A stretch of 39,425 nucleotides of DNA from an uncultured Erysipelotrichaceae bacterium (GTDB taxonomy: Bacteria; Bacillota_I; Bacilli_A; RFN20; CAG-826). A program made the translations under genes and the position numbers. The stretch is from contig CACZZG010000006.1 in assembly GCA_902785645.1 (NCBI GenBank), positions 1-39,425 of the forward strand, in the 5' to 3' direction. Within the stretch, counting starts at the first letter, position 1; each line of letters begins with the position of its first letter. This document shows, in pieces, positions 17,432 to 26,383 of the stretch. A model generated the notes under the pieces. That model saw only the letters and a program-made list of their open reading frames with translations. It was not told where the DNA came from and did no database searches.

Positions 17432-18751
17432 ATGAAAAAGCCATCAATACTTTCTATATTATCTATCGCTTTGTTAGCTACTTCTTGTAACGGAAATAAC
17501 AACGCTAAAAAAACTGTCAGCGTTAATATGAACGCGATGGTAAACGCAAATGCAAAGCAATATAAAGTCAAGGCTGAATACCAAGACGGTTTTTTCACTA
17601 AGTCTTCAGAAAGTTTAAATAAAGATTTGGCAATGGTTTCTTATTTAGGAACATTTGCTGCTTCCAATGAAAATGATGCCGAATCATTTTATTCTCAATT
17701 AGGTTTTGAAAAATGCTATGCCTCCACTGCTTATTCCGCGACTGAAGTTGACGAAAACTCTATCGCTTATTATGTCGCACATAAAGTAATCAAAAAGACC
17801 GATACATTTGTCTTATCTCTTAGAGGATATAATTACAACCAAGAATGGTCTAATAACTTCTATCTCGGTTCAGAAGGAGATCATGCTGGTTTTACTCAAG
17901 GAGCAAATCTCATCTTGGATGAATTCTCTAAATATTTACAAGAGAATTACAAAAGCAAATCAATTAAGCTTTGGATTAATGGCTATTCACGTGCTGGCGG
18001 AATCGCTAACGTATTAGCGCATAAGATTATCTCTTCAACCACTTTACCAGTCAAAGATGAAAACCTCTTTGTTTATACATATGAAGCCCCACAAGGATTA
18101 GAAAAATCTAACGCTATTAAATATAAAAATGTCTTTAACTTTGTTAATGGAGCAGATTTAATCACAAGAATTGCCCCAACAGTATATGGATTCGCCAGAT
18201 GCGGGCAAGATATTGATATCTATAATTCGAAAGTTGATGGTTTATTAAATAACTTAGACAAAGATGCTTATTTACCACATCTTAAAACTTCTGATAATTA
18301 CAAAAACGACATCCAATTAGCGGAATATATTATTGAATCATTAACCAAAGAAAACGGTGACAAAACCATGACTTTGGAAAATCGCCACTACTATGTCGCT
18401 AATTATCAAGAAGGCATTAGATATATGCTTAAAATATTCTTCTCGTTCTCTGAACAAGCCAAGAATAACATGATGAATAAATTCAACAAAATGACTCTTA
18501 TTGAGAAGTTAGCACTTATCAGTAAAGATGGCGTCTATAACTTCATCAAACCATTCATTGATGCTGATGGAATTCCTTATGATGATAGTAAACTACACAC
18601 AAGCTGTGACAAGATTAACTTGTTTCTCACTGGACCTGGCTATGATTTAAGAACAATTCTTATGAGCGATCCTAACACGCTGATGCGCGCTATATCAATG
18701 CACTACACAGAAGTGAATTACGTCTTGCTCAACGATTATCGACCACAATAA
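17432..18751 (+). CDS. Lipase-like alpha/beta-hydrolase lipoprotein 1
   Basis: 439-aa predicted lipoprotein with lipobox LATSC (Cys19). A class 3-like lipase core follows: FVLSLRGYNYNQEWSNNF (126-143) for the strand and oxyanion region, then WINGYSRAGG with nucleophile Ser186 in GYSRAG. The acid and histidine cannot be placed with certainty. It is probably tethered outside the membrane and acts on lipids or other esters. The second lipoprotein at 23050 has the same motif set and order (RGGNYDAEWASN, then GYSRA), so they are paralogs. AGGAGGGGG precedes the ATG. Followed by a terminator. Confidence 0.78.
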   Translation: MKKPSILSILSIALLATSCNGNNNAKKTVSVNMNAMVNANAKQYKVKAEYQDGFFTKSSESLNKDLAMVSYLGTFAASNENDAESFYSQLGFEKCYASTAYSATEVDENSIAYYVAHKVIKKTDTFVLSLRGYNYNQEWSNNFYLGSEGDHAGFTQGANLILDEFSKYLQENYKSKSIKLWINGYSRAGGIANVLAHKIISSTTLPVKDENLFVYTYEAPQGLEKSNAIKYKNVFNFVNGADLITRIAPTVYGFARCGQDIDIYNSKVDGLLNNLDKDAYLPHLKTSDNYKNDIQLAEYIIESLTKENGDKTMTLENRHYYVANYQEGIRYMLKIFFSFSEQAKNNMMNKFNKMTLIEKLALISKDGVYNFIKPFIDADGIPYDDSKLHTSCDKINLFLTGPGYDLRTILMSDPNTLMRAISMHYTEVNYVLLNDYRPQ

Positions 18752-21069: not shown

Positions 21070-23013
21070 TTATTCTTTTATATCGCCAATGATGAATGAT
21101 TGTTGATTGTTTGGTGTGTATTTACAAAGGAGAATGAATGGGATTAAGAACAAGATCCATTCATTTCCATCTATTCCTAAATAATAGGCATATTGATTTT
21201 TTACAAAGAACATATCGATAATCGCTGCGATCAAAATCAAAATCGCACATATGCCGTTTTCAATTAATGTATATCTATCTCCATAGAAGAAGAATTGTGC
21301 TTTGTGTAAGCCAAATTTTCTTTCGTAAAACAAACGTAAAGCGAAAATTAAATACATGAAGAGAATGGACACAAGAGATAAAGATAAGAATCCATTCGGG
21401 AACCAGAATGTTAAGAATATATTCGCTCTAACACCATATTTAAATGCATAAGCATTTGAGACAAAGTAGGCAGTGATTAAAAACGCCAAAGGAATAAGCG
21501 AAAGGCTATGCCAAATAATGCGGATATGTTTTTTATTCTTTGCTAAGAATGATGGTTGGAAGAACAAGAATAAGAAGATGAGATAATGAACCGCGACTAC
21601 TTGATAAACATTTCCTGGAATGTAATTAAAGATAATTGATGCAAAATCATATCCCCAAGCATTAGTGATGCTAATAACGACCGTTTCTAATGTCGCAATA
21701 AATAGGAAAAATCCAAGATTATAAACTATTGCGTTAAATAACGTGGTCGCCTTTTTAATGCGATTCATCATAATGAATTGTTCAAGGAATATACCTGCGA
21801 GCAATAAGATTTTTAATGTGGTTAGGAATGTGTTATTGCCCATAAATGCAGGCAATGGCAAACCAAGCTTTGCTAAGAATGCCACTATAAATAAAGTCAT
21901 TGAACCATACTGCATGATTTTTGAAGCAATGATGACAAACATATCAGGAATGCCGAACTCAATCTTCAAATCCTTTGGAAGTGGCTCATATTTATTGGAT
22001 TGTTTTTCTGGTTCAGTGTTCACTAAACGTGGTTTGATATTTGCAATCATTGCATAAACAAACATGCTAAAAACTATGAAAAACGCCACTATTCCACTCA
22101 AAATTAAGATTAATCCGACAATTTGGAGAGCAAAATTAATCTTTCTTCCTTGTTCTCTATCTGGCAAGAAATTATCAGAAAATGACACTTCACGTCCTAT
22201 GTAATCACTTAGTAACTTAGACATTAAAGACTCAACATTACTAAGTCTGCTGTTGACGATTTGAGTAGCAATATCTTTATCAACTTCAGTTCCTCCATCG
22301 ACGAGAATTTTGAAGTTTTTGATCTCGTCAATGTGTTCACTGTTATATGTTAAATAGCAACTGAAAGAAGTACCTGTTGACCAGTTACCATAGGTGAATT
22401 TAGTGTTAAAAGAATTAACTGTTAAGTTTGAGCCAAATTGGAAATGGTATCTTTCAATACCTTTTTCTGTCATCGTGGTAATGGAATAAGTGCACTCATT
22501 GAAATAGAGCATACTTTCTTTTTCATAGAAAGTCATCATCGCGGTGCCACCACCATTTGAATCTGTCACATAGTGATACTCTAATGAAGTCACTAAATCA
22601 TGTCCGATGGCGCCTTCTTGTTCAACGGCTTTTTTCATCTCGTTATATGTTTGACCATAGAATGAACTAGAATTACTGACTGATTTAACAAATAAACCAG
22701 TGCCAACACCAATTGACGCTAATAAAGCGGCGGATAAAGCACCGAGGACAATGCGCTTAACAAACAAAGATTGTTTTTTACTTTTAATTTCTTTTTCTTT
22801 TGTTGGCGCGGGATAAGCATCTTCACCTTCTAAAGAAATCTTCTCACCATAAAACTTTTCTAGTTTTTCTAGACTTCTTTTGTGTGGTCTAAAATAACCG
22901 TTCTCATAAAAGTATAAAGACCAGTGATGAATTCCAATTTCTTTCGCGGCTTGTTTAAGTGATAAACCACGATTCTTTCTCAAGTTTTCTAGGTGAGTGT
23001 TGTAATTATTCAT
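21070..23013 (-). CDS. XRE-type HTH protein fused to a large multi-span membrane domain
   Basis: 647 aa. Residues 8-55 are a Cro/C1-type helix-turn-helix (LRKNRGLSLKQAAKEIGI, then HHWSLYFYENGYFRPHKRSLEKL). A linker leads to one membrane helix at 86-110, an extracytoplasmic domain at about 111-295, another helix at 296-323, a loop, and then seven or eight hydrophobic helices from about 356 to the end. This is a one-component membrane-bound regulator layout in which the membrane part could sense a signal for the DNA-binding head. I do not recognise the membrane domain. It is divergent from lipase-like gene 2, sharing a 36-bp gap, so that gene is a likely target. Confidence 0.72.
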   Translation of the reverse strand: MNNYNTHLENLRKNRGLSLKQAAKEIGIHHWSLYFYENGYFRPHKRSLEKLEKFYGEKISLEGEDAYPAPTKEKEIKSKKQSLFVKRIVLGALSAALLASIGVGTGLFVKSVSNSSSFYGQTYNEMKKAVEQEGAIGHDLVTSLEYHYVTDSNGGGTAMMTFYEKESMLYFNECTYSITTMTEKGIERYHFQFGSNLTVNSFNTKFTYGNWSTGTSFSCYLTYNSEHIDEIKNFKILVDGGTEVDKDIATQIVNSRLSNVESLMSKLLSDYIGREVSFSDNFLPDREQGRKINFALQIVGLILILSGIVAFFIVFSMFVYAMIANIKPRLVNTEPEKQSNKYEPLPKDLKIEFGIPDMFVIIASKIMQYGSMTLFIVAFLAKLGLPLPAFMGNNTFLTTLKILLLAGIFLEQFIMMNRIKKATTLFNAIVYNLGFFLFIATLETVVISITNAWGYDFASIIFNYIPGNVYQVVAVHYLIFLFLFFQPSFLAKNKKHIRIIWHSLSLIPLAFLITAYFVSNAYAFKYGVRANIFLTFWFPNGFLSLSLVSILFMYLIFALRLFYERKFGLHKAQFFFYGDRYTLIENGICAILILIAAIIDMFFVKNQYAYYLGIDGNEWILFLIPFILLCKYTPNNQQSFIIGDIKE

Positions 23014-23035
23014 TTTTATCTTTTACATAAGATAG

Positions 23036-23041
23036 TATATT
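23036..23041 (+). promoter_or_regulatory. -10-like box before lipase-like gene 2
   Basis: TATATT ends eight bases before ATG 23050, with no ribosome site between. On the other strand a TATACT box for the XRE gene overlaps the same few bases, so the two promoters are face to face. Confidence 0.4.
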
Positions 23042-23049
23042 ATTTTCTC

Positions 23050-24825
23050 ATGAGAATTAAATTTAAATTTCTTCTTTTATTACCATTTCTTTTCACAAGT
23101 ATTGGTTGTTCAAAATCTGACAAGATTACTTTTAAAAGCGGGGATTTTGAATTTGAAACATATTATAACGACAAATATTTCTTATTAGATAATCGTGAAT
23201 TACATGAAGAAATCGCTTTAGCCTCACATGCGATGGCTTTAGCCACTTTTAATGGAAATAAAGATTATTCTTTAAGAGGAACATATTTAAAACAACTTTG
23301 GAAAGCCGAACACTTTGAAAATATGTGGCTCAACGAAGGTTTTTATAATAAACCAGAAACCGATTCTATTGGTTATGGCATCGCTAGTAAAAAGATTCAA
23401 GACTTTACACTTCTTGCAATTGCGGTTAGAGGTGGAAACTATGATGCCGAATGGGCGAGTAATCTAACTATTGGTGCGGAAGGTGACGCTCAAGGTTTTA
23501 ATGAAGCCAGCAATAAAGTTGTCGAAGGATTAATCAGATTTATTGATGTTTATCAAATAACTGGTCATGTCAAAGTATGGATATCCGGTTATTCACGTGC
23601 GGCTATTACAAGTAATATGACCGCGGGAAAACTATTAAATAGAATCAACGCAAATAATCTTACTAGTAAAAACGTTAGTTGTACCGCTGATGATATTTAT
23701 GCATATTGTTTTGAACCTCCAATGGGTGTTCAAGTGTTATTGGAGGAAGCCAGAAGCGATTTATACCATGGCATTCATAATTTTATTAACTATAACGATC
23801 CCGTGCCTCTCGTGGCTCCTTATGAATGGGGATTTACTCGTTATGGCACAGACCACTACTATCCAGATCGTTTAAATGATATTTATTTTGATGAAAGTGA
23901 AAGAGAAAAGATCATCACTTTATATCATTTCACTTATGGAGCGCAAAACTTTGCTCACTACTCAGTTGATGAATGGAAATTCTTTGATGTTGGCGAAGAA
24001 TACGCAAAAGAAAATAACTTACCAAGAGAAAGTGTTAATCCTTCCCAAGGAAGATTTGTTCATGCTTTCATTCATGAACTCGCAAATACCGGTATTCAAA
24101 GTCGTGAAAACTATGCAAACTTTGTCCAAAAAGGTGTTAGAGACATCATGGCGGCAGTTATGGGTGCTAATAGCAAAATCGAAAAAATCGATTTGAAAAA
24201 CCTTGTACAAATCATCTTTGAATATGACTTTATTAAAACTTTAATCATGGAACTTGAAGAAGACCAAGGTCCACAATTCGCTATGGACGTTGAGATGCTA
24301 TTTTTACAAATCTTTGGTGCAAATAAAGATAACTTCGAAGAAGTGAAGAATTTATATGAAGAAAACTTTATGTTCTTCAATATGTTCGCGGAAGCTTTTA
24401 AAATTCGTAAAGATATCATGACACAACTTCTCTTTAGAGATAACGCTATGGGAATTATCATTGGACATATACCAGAAGTTAGCTACTCCTTCTTGTCATC
24501 CTGTGATTCAAGATTTATGGGCAAGAAAGCATGCAAATTCAATGATGGCACTTATGATGTTCTCCATATTGAGAAACCAACATCATTCACACTTATTGAA
24601 AAGAACATCAAAAAAGAAGTCTTCTCTTATAAAGATGGAGTGATGAAAAGCTCACATCTGGCTGCAGAAAAGATGGCGGATGGAAGTATCGATATCTATC
24701 TTCCAAGAAACGGAGAATACGAATATATTTCCGATTCATTAGGATTATCTCTTGGTGTGGTAGATCCACTTCAAGGAGAAACAATTGCAAGCACAAATCT
24801 TCCACAAAAGGGTGAAATAAATTAA
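23050..24825 (+). CDS. Lipase-like alpha/beta-hydrolase lipoprotein 2
   Basis: 591-aa predicted lipoprotein with lipobox TSIGC (Cys20). The hydrolase core matches lipoprotein 1: AVRGGNYDAEWASNLTIGAEGDAQGFNEA (125-153) and WISGYSRAA with nucleophile Ser182. A long C-terminal part of about 300 residues has helical and then beta-rich segments not present in the shorter paralog. The upstream in-frame ATG at 22993 would overlap the divergent XRE gene; MRIKFKFLLL gives a proper signal peptide, so ATG 23050 is chosen. Start lacks a ribosome site. Likely a surface lipid or ester hydrolase. Confidence 0.77.
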   Translation: MRIKFKFLLLLPFLFTSIGCSKSDKITFKSGDFEFETYYNDKYFLLDNRELHEEIALASHAMALATFNGNKDYSLRGTYLKQLWKAEHFENMWLNEGFYNKPETDSIGYGIASKKIQDFTLLAIAVRGGNYDAEWASNLTIGAEGDAQGFNEASNKVVEGLIRFIDVYQITGHVKVWISGYSRAAITSNMTAGKLLNRINANNLTSKNVSCTADDIYAYCFEPPMGVQVLLEEARSDLYHGIHNFINYNDPVPLVAPYEWGFTRYGTDHYYPDRLNDIYFDESEREKIITLYHFTYGAQNFAHYSVDEWKFFDVGEEYAKENNLPRESVNPSQGRFVHAFIHELANTGIQSRENYANFVQKGVRDIMAAVMGANSKIEKIDLKNLVQIIFEYDFIKTLIMELEEDQGPQFAMDVEMLFLQIFGANKDNFEEVKNLYEENFMFFNMFAEAFKIRKDIMTQLLFRDNAMGIIIGHIPEVSYSFLSSCDSRFMGKKACKFNDGTYDVLHIEKPTSFTLIEKNIKKEVFSYKDGVMKSSHLAAEKMADGSIDIYLPRNGEYEYISDSLGLSLGVVDPLQGETIASTNLPQKGEIN

Positions 24826-24953: not shown

Positions 24954-24959
24954 TATGAT
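24954..24959 (+). promoter_or_regulatory. Possible -10 box of the structured RNA
   Basis: TATGAT in an AT-rich run directly before the GC-richer structured segment. No good -35 is seen, so this is tentative. Confidence 0.3.
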
Positions 24960-24965
24960 AAAGTA

Positions 24966-25290
24966 AAGTTACTCATACATTTAGACCACGGGCGCTATGA
25001 ACTAGCTAATACCAAAGTCGACCATACGCAGGGATACTGAGGTCAATGGATATGTGGGCTATCACACTACGTGTTAGGGTGTGGTAATAGGGAAAGTATT
25101 GCCCATTAATATTATTTAATCTAGGAACGTTCCGTAAATCCGGGGTCTAGAGAGAATCTTATTATGCGCTCCCTACAATTATTAATTTAATTGAGCATGT
25201 GGCCATCACAATGATGATGTAACACCAGTAGTTACGGGGCTTAGTCGATAACTACAAAAGGTGTTTTTATTATGGTGATGGCTTTTATTA
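24966..25290 (+). ncRNA. Candidate structured RNA upstream of a small gene
   Basis: About 325 bases without an open frame but dense in complementary arms and richer in GC than the flanks. Pairs seen: GACC 24984-24987 with GGTC 25041-25044; GGGC 25056-25059 with GCCC 25101-25104, enclosing ATCACAC 25061-25067 with GTGTGGT 25079-25085; TCTAG 25120-25124 with CTAGA 25147-25151 around GGAACGTTCC; and a three-tier hairpin at the 3' end. I cannot match it to tmRNA, RNase P, 6S, SRP RNA or a riboswitch I know. The ends are estimates from the promoter-like box and the terminator-like hairpin. It may be a cis-leader of the gene at 25340 or an independent RNA. Confidence 0.55.
25202..25289 (+). terminator. 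Three-tier hairpin with terminator-like end
   Basis: GCCATCAC 25202-25209 pairs with GTGATGGC 25275-25282; inside, AACACC 25221-25226 pairs with GGTGTT 25260-25265; inside that, GTAGTTA 25228-25234 pairs with TAACTAC 25249-25255. The outer arm is followed by TTTTATT. Twenty-one nested base pairs without a mismatch are strong evidence for a real RNA structure; termination itself is inferred from the short T run. Confidence 0.6.
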
Positions 25291-25291
25291 T

Positions 25292-25329
25292 CTCCTTTTA
25301 AAGACACCATTAACGTTTATAGAAAGGAG
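25292..25329 (+). promoter_or_regulatory. Hairpin covering the ribosome site of the small gene
   Basis: CTCCTTT 25292-25298 is perfectly complementary to AAAGGAG 25323-25329, the core of the ribosome site AAAGGAGG ten bases before ATG 25340. The 7-bp helix would block translation until opened. CTCCTTT directly follows the terminator-like hairpin. Confidence 0.55.
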
Positions 25330-25339
25330 GAAAGATTTA

Positions 25340-25669
25340 ATGCAATCTAAATATCATTTTAGAAGATATAGGTTATCACAAAATCATCCATTTCTAGTTG
25401 CGCTCGTAACTGAAGAAAAAGATGAGAATGGAAAAGTATTAATTTCTGGTTTTAATATGACTAGATCTATTACCTATGTATTAAGCAGGCCAAACAAATT
25501 CATTAGAATTGATAATCCAAATCCATTGGATGATGCCGAATGCTACATTTGTGTTGATGCTTTAAAAGATAAACCATTGAAGTATTTCTCAAAGCCATTA
25601 AAGGATTGGGCATTATCTGAAGAAGACGAAATAGTTATTGATGAATTAGTTAAACAAAAGCTTAAATAG
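25340..25669 (+). CDS. Small protein of unknown function
   Basis: 109-aa soluble protein I do not recognise. It starts basic (SKYHFRRYRLSQ), then HPFLVALVTEEKDENGKVLISGF with alternating hydrophobics suggesting strands, FNMTRSITYVLSRP, FIRIDNPNPLDDAECYICVD with two cysteines, and a helical acidic tail LSEEDEIVIDELVKQ. No signal peptide or membrane helix. The compact beta-rich pattern loosely recalls SH3-like small barrels, which is speculation. The ribosome site AAAGGAGG is strong but can be covered by an upstream hairpin. It is preceded by a structured RNA and followed by a 16-bp terminator stem, so it forms an isolated unit. Confidence 0.75.
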   Translation: MQSKYHFRRYRLSQNHPFLVALVTEEKDENGKVLISGFNMTRSITYVLSRPNKFIRIDNPNPLDDAECYICVDALKDKPLKYFSKPLKDWALSEEDEIVIDELVKQKLK

Positions 25670-25680
25670 TCGCTTCAAAA

Positions 25681-25737
25681 AATAAAAGCACTTCCTGTGA
25701 TAGCTAATGACTACCATTATGAGGAAGTGCTTTTATT
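25681..25737. terminator. Long perfect terminator stem shared by both strands
   Basis: AATAAAAGCACTTCCT 25681-25696 pairs perfectly with AGGAAGTGCTTTTATT 25722-25737, a 16-bp stem with a 25-base loop. On the minus strand it is followed by TTTTTT, so it fits a terminator for the minus-strand tRNA-Trp/structured segment as well as for the small plus-strand gene. Confidence 0.85.
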
Positions 25738-25871: not shown

Positions 25872-25945
25872 TGGCAGGGGTGACAAGAATCGAACTCGCA
25901 TCAGCGGTTTTGGAGACCGTTGCACTGCCATTGTGCTACACCCCT
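25872..25945 (-). tRNA. tRNA-Trp (CCA)
   Basis: Minus-strand cloverleaf with acceptor AGGGGTG/CACCCCT, anticodon loop CTCCAAA giving CCA, and encoded 3' CCA. The anticodon stem has an A-C mismatch at its base (27-43). An anticodon of CCA reads only TGG, consistent with TGA acting as a stop in this genome. Confidence 0.95.
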
Positions 25946-25960
25946 ATTCGCAATTTAGCA

Positions 25961-26383
25961 TTATAAACCACGAACTATTTGGCTGACAAGAGACATATCC
26001 ACTCTTCCAGCAAAATTCATCTTGAAGTGCTTCATAACACTCGGCATAGATTTATCATCTAGCTTATTAATTTCTTCGATAATTTCCTCTCTGGATAGTT
26101 GTTTTGGAAGATAAGCTTTAATGACTTCTTCTTGATGCTCAATAGAGCTCACTCTTTCAGTGTTATTGACTTTCTTATAGCCTTCTTTTTCATCGGATAA
26201 TTCTTTTAGAACTTTTTGAATTACTTCTAATACATTACTATCTTGGAACTCTTGACCTTTTGCGTTGAATTCCACGATTTGAAGTTGGCATTTTGTTAAA
26301 ACAACAGAGATCACACTTCTAGCATCTTTGTCTTTATTTTTCATTGCCTCAATGTTGGCTTTTTTAAGATCATCTAATAACAT
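25961..26383 (-). CDS. yqeY: GatB/YqeY domain protein
   Basis: 140-aa cytosolic protein of the YqeY family, related to the tail domain of amidotransferase subunit GatB and thought to bind tRNA or assist amidotransferase function. The N-terminal helix LLDDLKKANIEAMKNKDKDARSVISVV and the region VIKAYLPKQLSREEIIEEI are typical, as is the C-terminal GRVDMSLVSQIVR. AAGGAG ribosome site. A TATAAT box and an adjoining palindrome lie upstream. tRNA-Trp follows 15 bases later. Confidence 0.9.
   Translation of the reverse strand: MLLDDLKKANIEAMKNKDKDARSVISVVLTKCQLQIVEFNAKGQEFQDSNVLEVIQKVLKELSDEKEGYKKVNNTERVSSIEHQEEVIKAYLPKQLSREEIIEEINKLDDKSMPSVMKHFKMNFAGRVDMSLVSQIVRGL

Follow-up and report, generated by a model that had tools for sequence, protein, structure and literature searches.

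What is a structured RNA without a reading frame doing in front of a small, apparently orphan gene? The window studied here is the whole stretch of 39,425 nt at positions 1 to 39,425 of contig CACZZG010000006.1 (assembly GCA_902785645.1), from an uncultured Erysipelotrichaceae bacterium. At positions 24954-25670, an initial annotation made from the letters alone had described about 325 bases of folded RNA, a three-tier hairpin with a T run, a helix that overlies the ribosome site, and a gene for a 109-aa protein. It had left two answers: a cis-regulatory RNA with two control points, or an RNA acting together with the small protein. The related loci support the first answer. The locus is probably a cis-regulatory RNA leader with an exchangeable cargo gene, in which a terminator/antiterminator switch would be combined with sequestration of the ribosome site. 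We rate the RNA as an attenuator-type leader RNA in general kind. The features are listed in Table 1.

The region 24954-25293 holds no reading frame, and its predicted fold (−93.8 kcal/mol, z = −2.41) was lower than all 100 shuffled sequences. A consensus structure was obtained from an alignment (A2) of 42 leaders; in all, 94 loci of the Rfam family RF02941 were retrieved. The consensus pairs were paired in 98.9% of the cells of these 42 relatives, compared with 35-46% when the partners were slid by 1-3 columns, and two-sided changes were observed in 25 of the 56 pairs. The covariation score was 0.403, against 0.152 for shuffled and 0.05-0.085 for slid partners. G-U cells (265) were found in far greater number than A-C cells (10), which indicates that the + strand is the folded one, as would be expected for an RNA but not for a DNA structure on the other strand. 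The folded, frame-less RNA of the initial annotation was thus borne out.

The long-range helix P4 was 100% paired in the alignment, with GC/AU and UA/GC/CG/AU exchanges. It ties the part modelled by Rfam to the 5' domain outside the model, and its 3' strand is unpaired in RF02941. A locus-wise pattern count for P4 was one base out of register in 9 of 90 loci, and the alignment column counts were preferred. The outer part of the 5' domain (24974-25056) showed several alternative forms, with other helices substituting in other leaders. A second conserved core, GTGTTAGG...GGAAAGTATYGCCCA, lies upstream of RF02941 in 90/92 loci. Exact matches to the 5' core in 279 genomes numbered 42, all on contigs that also carry an RF02941 match, and reversed controls gave 0. 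At the level of the alignment, these data show a complete conserved RNA of about 325 nt with strong covariation support, of which Rfam models a fragment only. We infer its 5' end from the −10 box and its 3' end from the terminator. The −10 box has a fixed position; it abuts P1, and the RNA would begin just past it. Among the 45 relatives with sufficient upstream sequence, the best match to TATAAT near the P1 start had 0 mismatches in 24 and 1 mismatch in 21, compared with mostly 2 mismatches in a background region.

The 3' 100 nt of the leader match the full model of RF02941 ('COG3943 RNA') above the curated score. This family covers the 3' third, so that part of the RNA was already known, and the earlier statement that it fits no known family did not survive the Rfam scan, at 81 bits. 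No other credible Rfam match was obtained in the window, even at E up to 5, and an Rfam 15 scan of leaders from 20 diverse loci returned RF02941 alone and no known riboswitch class. Identity with a known riboswitch, T-box, raiA, ROOL, GOLLD, or OLE was rejected, as Rfam matches none besides RF02941. The actual RNA differs from RF02941 in being about three times longer, and the model lacks both P1-P4 and the competing pairings described below. Some leader relatives precede RhuM genes, and RhuM, which we take to be COG3943, would fit the motif name; RhuM is nevertheless a minority of the cargo.

RF02941 was present in 66 of the 279 genomes of the order. It was not found outside this order in the phylum and class samples, so a wide distribution was rejected. 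A phage or plasmid origin was also rejected, as neither the RNA nor the 109-aa protein was matched in IMG/VR, phage, or plasmid records. In the open literature, a search that did not cover the original 2017 motif paper found nothing naming RF02941 or the COG3943 RNA motif, and nothing on the full RNA, the switching architecture, or its use before interchangeable toxin or defence genes. The 3' third is already known; the full RNA, the switch layout, and the use with swappable genes are apparently new, as judged by that search. The most divergent RF02941 copy (L145, G011:C3:53270-53369, 45.8 bits) stands before a 119-aa protein without a Pfam match, and a BrnA-like gene follows, a layout that might reflect the pairing of BrnA with a new toxin.

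The assignment to attenuators comes from strands that have two partners. The three-tier hairpin and its T run are present as first described, and in 96% of loci the outer stem did not exceed the 5th percentile of the shuffles. The hairpin 25201-25283 was not among the terminators reported by a simple scan whose loop limit was 8. The strand GGCCAUC has as partners either the terminator arm GAUGGC or a local GAUG, the latter forming the candidate antiterminator. Three-way covariation of the local hairpin and the terminator was observed in 70 of 88 loci, with the strand/local/terminator combinations AC/GT/GT (36 loci), AA/TT/TT (25 loci), GA/TC/TC (8 loci), and AT/AT/AT (1 locus). The local hairpin is in the best fold prior to transcription of the terminator 3' arm. 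Further downstream, GGUGUUUU closes the terminator inner stem with AACACC and is also complementary to AAAACACC past the terminator, and this second pairing showed compensating differences between loci. The alternative helix is kept in most loci with compensating changes and lay within the same percentile limit in 76% of loci.

The ribosome-site helix and the 109-aa reading frame were also found where they had been reported. This helix did not exceed the 5th percentile in 71% of loci, and CUCCUUU is complementary to the ribosome site in most loci. Both proposed control points, terminator and ribosome site, gained support. Mutually exclusive terminator and antiterminator pairings are conserved across the relatives, and it is by this property that the attenuator-type leader was recognised. 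The alignments show that the competition for common strands is conserved among relatives; the conserved pairings would then act as a switch. An own promoter, a structured sensor-like domain, a gene downstream, mutually exclusive strands, and a ribosome-site helix are all shared with attenuation leaders and riboswitches (T-box, metabolite). In contrast to riboswitches, the leader matches no known class of this kind in Rfam 15 in the 20 diverse leaders, and its output consists of toxin-like or defence-candidate genes of unrelated families.

In the window, the predicted energy of the terminator state (about −51 kcal/mol) is far more stable than that of the alternative (about −41 kcal/mol). This, with the lack of a known ligand class, would suit constitutive attenuation, in which the leader structure limits expression of a toxic gene and senses nothing. 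However, a constant attenuator would not require a conserved 5' domain of 200 nt and its long-range helix, or a three-way covariation that preserves the competing hairpin, and we consider this explanation very improbable.

The cargo gene starts almost always 45-110 nt downstream on the same strand, with a median of 73 nt past RF02941 over the 94 loci. It belonged to the DUF1016/YhcG PDDEXK family in 49 loci, the 109-aa family in 18, RhuM in 17, and BrnT (noted as BrnT/BrnA) in 5, and the singletons include KilA-N. The one RhuM cargo tested showed a Fic domain. PADLOC assigned DUF1016 to PDC-S02, RhuM-Fic to PDC-S23/S05, and KilA-N to PDC-S22, which we take to be single-gene defence candidates. 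Judged by their sequences, the cargo genes are unrelated toxin-like or defence-candidate genes from at least four unrelated protein families. Leader copies lacking a toxin-like gene behind them were hardly seen.

This arrangement bears on the strongest rival, an independent trans-acting small RNA (sRNA) or ribonucleoprotein RNA that ends at the terminator and travels with defence genes, the gene being merely co-located or read through. It is Rfam's own label for the family ('Gene; sRNA'), and in its size, its conserved core, and the exchangeable helices at its periphery the RNA is like large structural RNAs; the promoter at the 5' end and the terminator ahead of the gene would also fit. The nearly constant distance and strand of the cargo speak against it, as do the near absence of leaders without a toxin-like gene and the conservation of the ribosome-site helix and of the alternative helix beyond the terminator. 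We regard an independent RNA as unlikely and retain the cis-regulatory leader.

In G205 and G215, leaders 98% identical within one genome stand before DUF1016 and RhuM genes. This uncoupling of RNA and gene excludes a gene-specific RNA antitoxin, and a shared cis-acting leader fits it. The layout of promoter, RNA, terminator, and small protein had suggested a type III toxin-antitoxin locus, in which the RNA would act as an inhibitor by binding to the MazF-like protein. As in ToxIN, CptIN, and TenpIN, an RNA and a terminator precede a small protein, here with a predicted MazF-like fold. ToxN (2xd0, 7d8o) stood low in the fold list, and no protein antitoxin gene adjoins. Unlike these systems, the leader has no tandem repeats, as the initial annotation had already noted; none were seen by inspection of the 42-leader alignment, on which tandem-repeat programs were not run. 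The 109-aa protein falls in no ToxN, CptN, or TenpN family by Pfam or NCBIfam, with ToxN only weakly matched in the fold search, and its gene also occurs without the RNA. The same RNA is found before DUF1016, RhuM-Fic, BrnT, and KilA-N genes. Because near-identical leaders precede at least four unrelated families, the RNA is not a gene-specific type III antitoxin, and this reading was rejected as highly improbable. The initial annotation had named a known-family match, a gene without its RNA, and missing covariation as results that would tell against it. The first two were found, and the covariation was strong. These outcomes refute an exclusive pairing of RNA and gene but leave the regulatory RNA itself unrefuted.

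The cargo is also swapped in place. In one genus, the cargo at a single site next to a tRNA-Pro cluster differs between sister species and is either a RhuM gene or a DUF1016 gene from one of two subfamilies. The leader and the flanks are conserved there; one junction falls after the leader and before the start codon, the other at the stop codon. Such exchange between a constant leader and 3' flank could mean that the leader is mainly a DNA recombination site, its folding serving recombination like integron attC. With integron cassettes, the loci share a conserved element, exchangeable genes, and near-identical elements in one genome, and tRNA genes lie near the leader in 34/91 loci. Tandem leader and gene units about 1.6 kb apart (L083/L095 in G228:C51, L116/L120 in G188:C17) look like a small cassette array. 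In contrast to integron cassettes, each leader unit has its own promoter and a putative RNA switch, and the structure is kept on the RNA strand, with G-U and not A-C in the pairs (265:10). The promoter, terminator, and ribosome-site features are conserved, the junctions lie at the gene, outside the folded part, and ordinary homologous recombination between leaders could account for the swaps. No integrase was seen at the swap site, although no search aimed at integrases was made. A recombination element is quite unlikely in our judgement, and the swaps are better read as exchange of cargo under a cis-regulatory leader. A c-di-GMP-I riboswitch (L057 332-407, − strand, 50.1 bits) flanks one swap site.

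The AlphaFold2 model of the 109-aa protein showed a pLDDT of 88.5 and a pTM of 0.78. Its best matches in the PDB were nearly all MazF (prob 1.00, TM 0.6-0.66, E ~0.03-0.1), and PemK-like proteins were matched among viral models. As the model matches MazF and PemK-like structures, the protein is likely to be a ribonuclease-like toxin, in agreement with the earlier suspicion of a toxin-like small protein. Thr41, in a T-x-S motif, is invariant in the family and is placed like the MazF threonine, an equivalence drawn by eye. The catalytic residues of Klebsiella MazF are given as Arg28 and Thr51 (PMC8086154). The protein belongs to no Pfam or NCBIfam family, no convincing sequence relatives were found in Pfam, NCBIfam, PHROGs, or PDB, and no MazE-like gene adjoins, in contrast to MazF/PemK.

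The gene is not an orphan as had been supposed, since about 18 leader-linked relatives and further copies without leader were found. One of the latter, L200 (G000:C42), is a second, RNA-less MazF-like gene in the same genome as the window; it has a strong hairpin (AGCTCC...GGAG) over the ribosome site, unlike that of the window. In two genomes (L081, L083), the leader is separated from the MazF-like gene by a 60-aa reading frame (MRNPNRIPK...), a possible antitoxin with no Pfam family above the cut-off. In L123 (G003:C10) and L014, the MazF-like gene is broken soon after its start, and reading frames resembling parts of IS3-type transposases follow; the leader is still there.

In the proposed mechanism, the leader would be transcribed from its own promoter and would form two domains, a 5' one that resembles a sensor (P1-P4) and a 3' one that does the switching. 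When the leader is OFF, presumably its default, GGCCAUC would pair with GAUGGC with the AACACC/GGUGUU stem inside, transcription would end near 25285-25290, and CUCCUUU would hold the ribosome site of any read-through mRNA. When it is ON, CAUC would pair with the local GAUG, AACACC would be free or bound to the P3 loop GUGUUA, and GGUGUUUU would pair with the downstream AAAACACC; the terminator would be blocked and the ribosome site could open. The change to ON would occur once the 5' domain tips the balance towards the alternative pairing. The leader would in this way silence a costly, possibly toxic cargo gene (here of MazF/PemK fold), which may serve defence, until a signal appears. GUGUUA in the P3 loop could pair with the complementary UAACAC, and such a contact might give a 1-2/3-4 versus 2-3 scheme, by analogy with classic attenuators.

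Several observations weigh against the switch-controlled leader and its toxin cargo. The U tract after the terminator is short and not continuous (CUUUUAUUAU). Pairing between the P3 loop and AACACC is near-invariant with almost no covariation, and a match of at least 6 nt to the P3 loop was found in 27% of shuffled loops; as the P3 loop/UAACAC match is not significant alone, this contact is kept as an idea. Rfam labels RF02941 as an sRNA gene, not cis-reg. The 109-aa family is also found without the RNA, including the second copy in G000:C42, and among the some 50 YhcG genes counted in 32 leader-bearing genomes, about 22 lack a leader. The likeness to MazF lies in structure only (E ~0.03), without a sequence match, and in the invariant HPF motif His16 seems, by eye, to replace the MazF catalytic arginine.

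Table 1. Positions of the leader, its pairings, and neighbouring features in the window
Feature	Position	Strand	Remarks
Full conserved leader RNA	24966-25290	+	about 325 nt; alignment of 42 leaders and covariation count
−10 promoter hexamer TATGAT	24954-24959	+	immediately 5' of the RNA
P1	24974-24981/25049-25056	+	two-sided changes in 7/8 pairs
P2	24989-24999/25023-25039	+	inside P1
P3 hairpin	25060-25068/25078-25086	+	two-sided changes in 8/9 pairs
P3 loop GUGUUA	25071-25076	+	near-invariant; kept in nearly all loci
P4 long-range helix UAGGGA/UCCCUA	25088-25093/25170-25175	+	
RF02941 'COG3943 RNA' match	25165-25264	+	full model 1-108; 81.0 bits, gathering score 71.8, E 2.9e-13
Three-tier terminator-like hairpin and U tract	25201-25289	+	hairpin 25201-25283, U tract 25283-25289; outer stem GGCCAUCAC/GUGAUGGCU 25201-25209/25275-25283; inner stems 25221-25226/25260-25265 plus apical stem
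Local hairpin CAUCA/UGAUG, candidate antiterminator	25204-25219	+	5' strand common with terminator
Alternative helix GGUGUUUUUA/UAAAGACACC	25260-25269/25299-25308	+	excludes terminator inner stem
Ribosome-site hairpin UCUCCUUUU/GAAAGGAGG	25291-25299/25322-25330	+	
109-aa gene, putative toxin, predicted MazF/PemK fold	25340-25669	+	open reading frame list
Terminator-like hairpin 3' of the 109-aa gene	25681-25737	+	inverted repeat AATAAAAGCACTTCCT/AGGAAGTGCTTTTATT read from sequence
tRNA-Trp gene adjoining the cassette	25872-25945	−	ARAGORN; variable site among relatives

The tRNA-Trp/YqeY neighbourhood (window 25872-26383; L150 2230-3249) is kept in relatives. The space past tRNA-Trp differs, with the RNA cassette here, a RhuM-like gene in G009, and unrelated genes in others, and this site looks like an insertion hotspot. 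The window reading frames 17432-18751 and 22993-24825 resemble lipoproteins of a common lipase-like kind and share a GYSRA motif; the second of them stands directly upstream of the leader RNA.

The control of toxin and defence genes is known mostly via proteins or gene-specific antitoxin RNAs. A wider reading of the leader, which we hold tentatively and consider rather doubtful, is that of a large RNA sensor class acting as a common trigger for interchangeable single-gene defence. On sensing a shared danger signal, such as phage infection or a collapse of translation, it would release the current toxin or nuclease gene, with genes being swapped under the switch. A defence-wide RNA sensor is a possibility. 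The RF02941 entry would be corrected, as it covers one part of an RNA some three times its length, for which leader is a better term than sRNA. Further single-gene defence candidates, of which the 109-aa MazF-fold family is one example, may be found by means of the leader. If the reading is true, this RNA, common to many unrelated defence-candidate genes, would be the equivalent in RNA of shared defence regulators, and its 5' domain would indicate a signal marking infection or stress.
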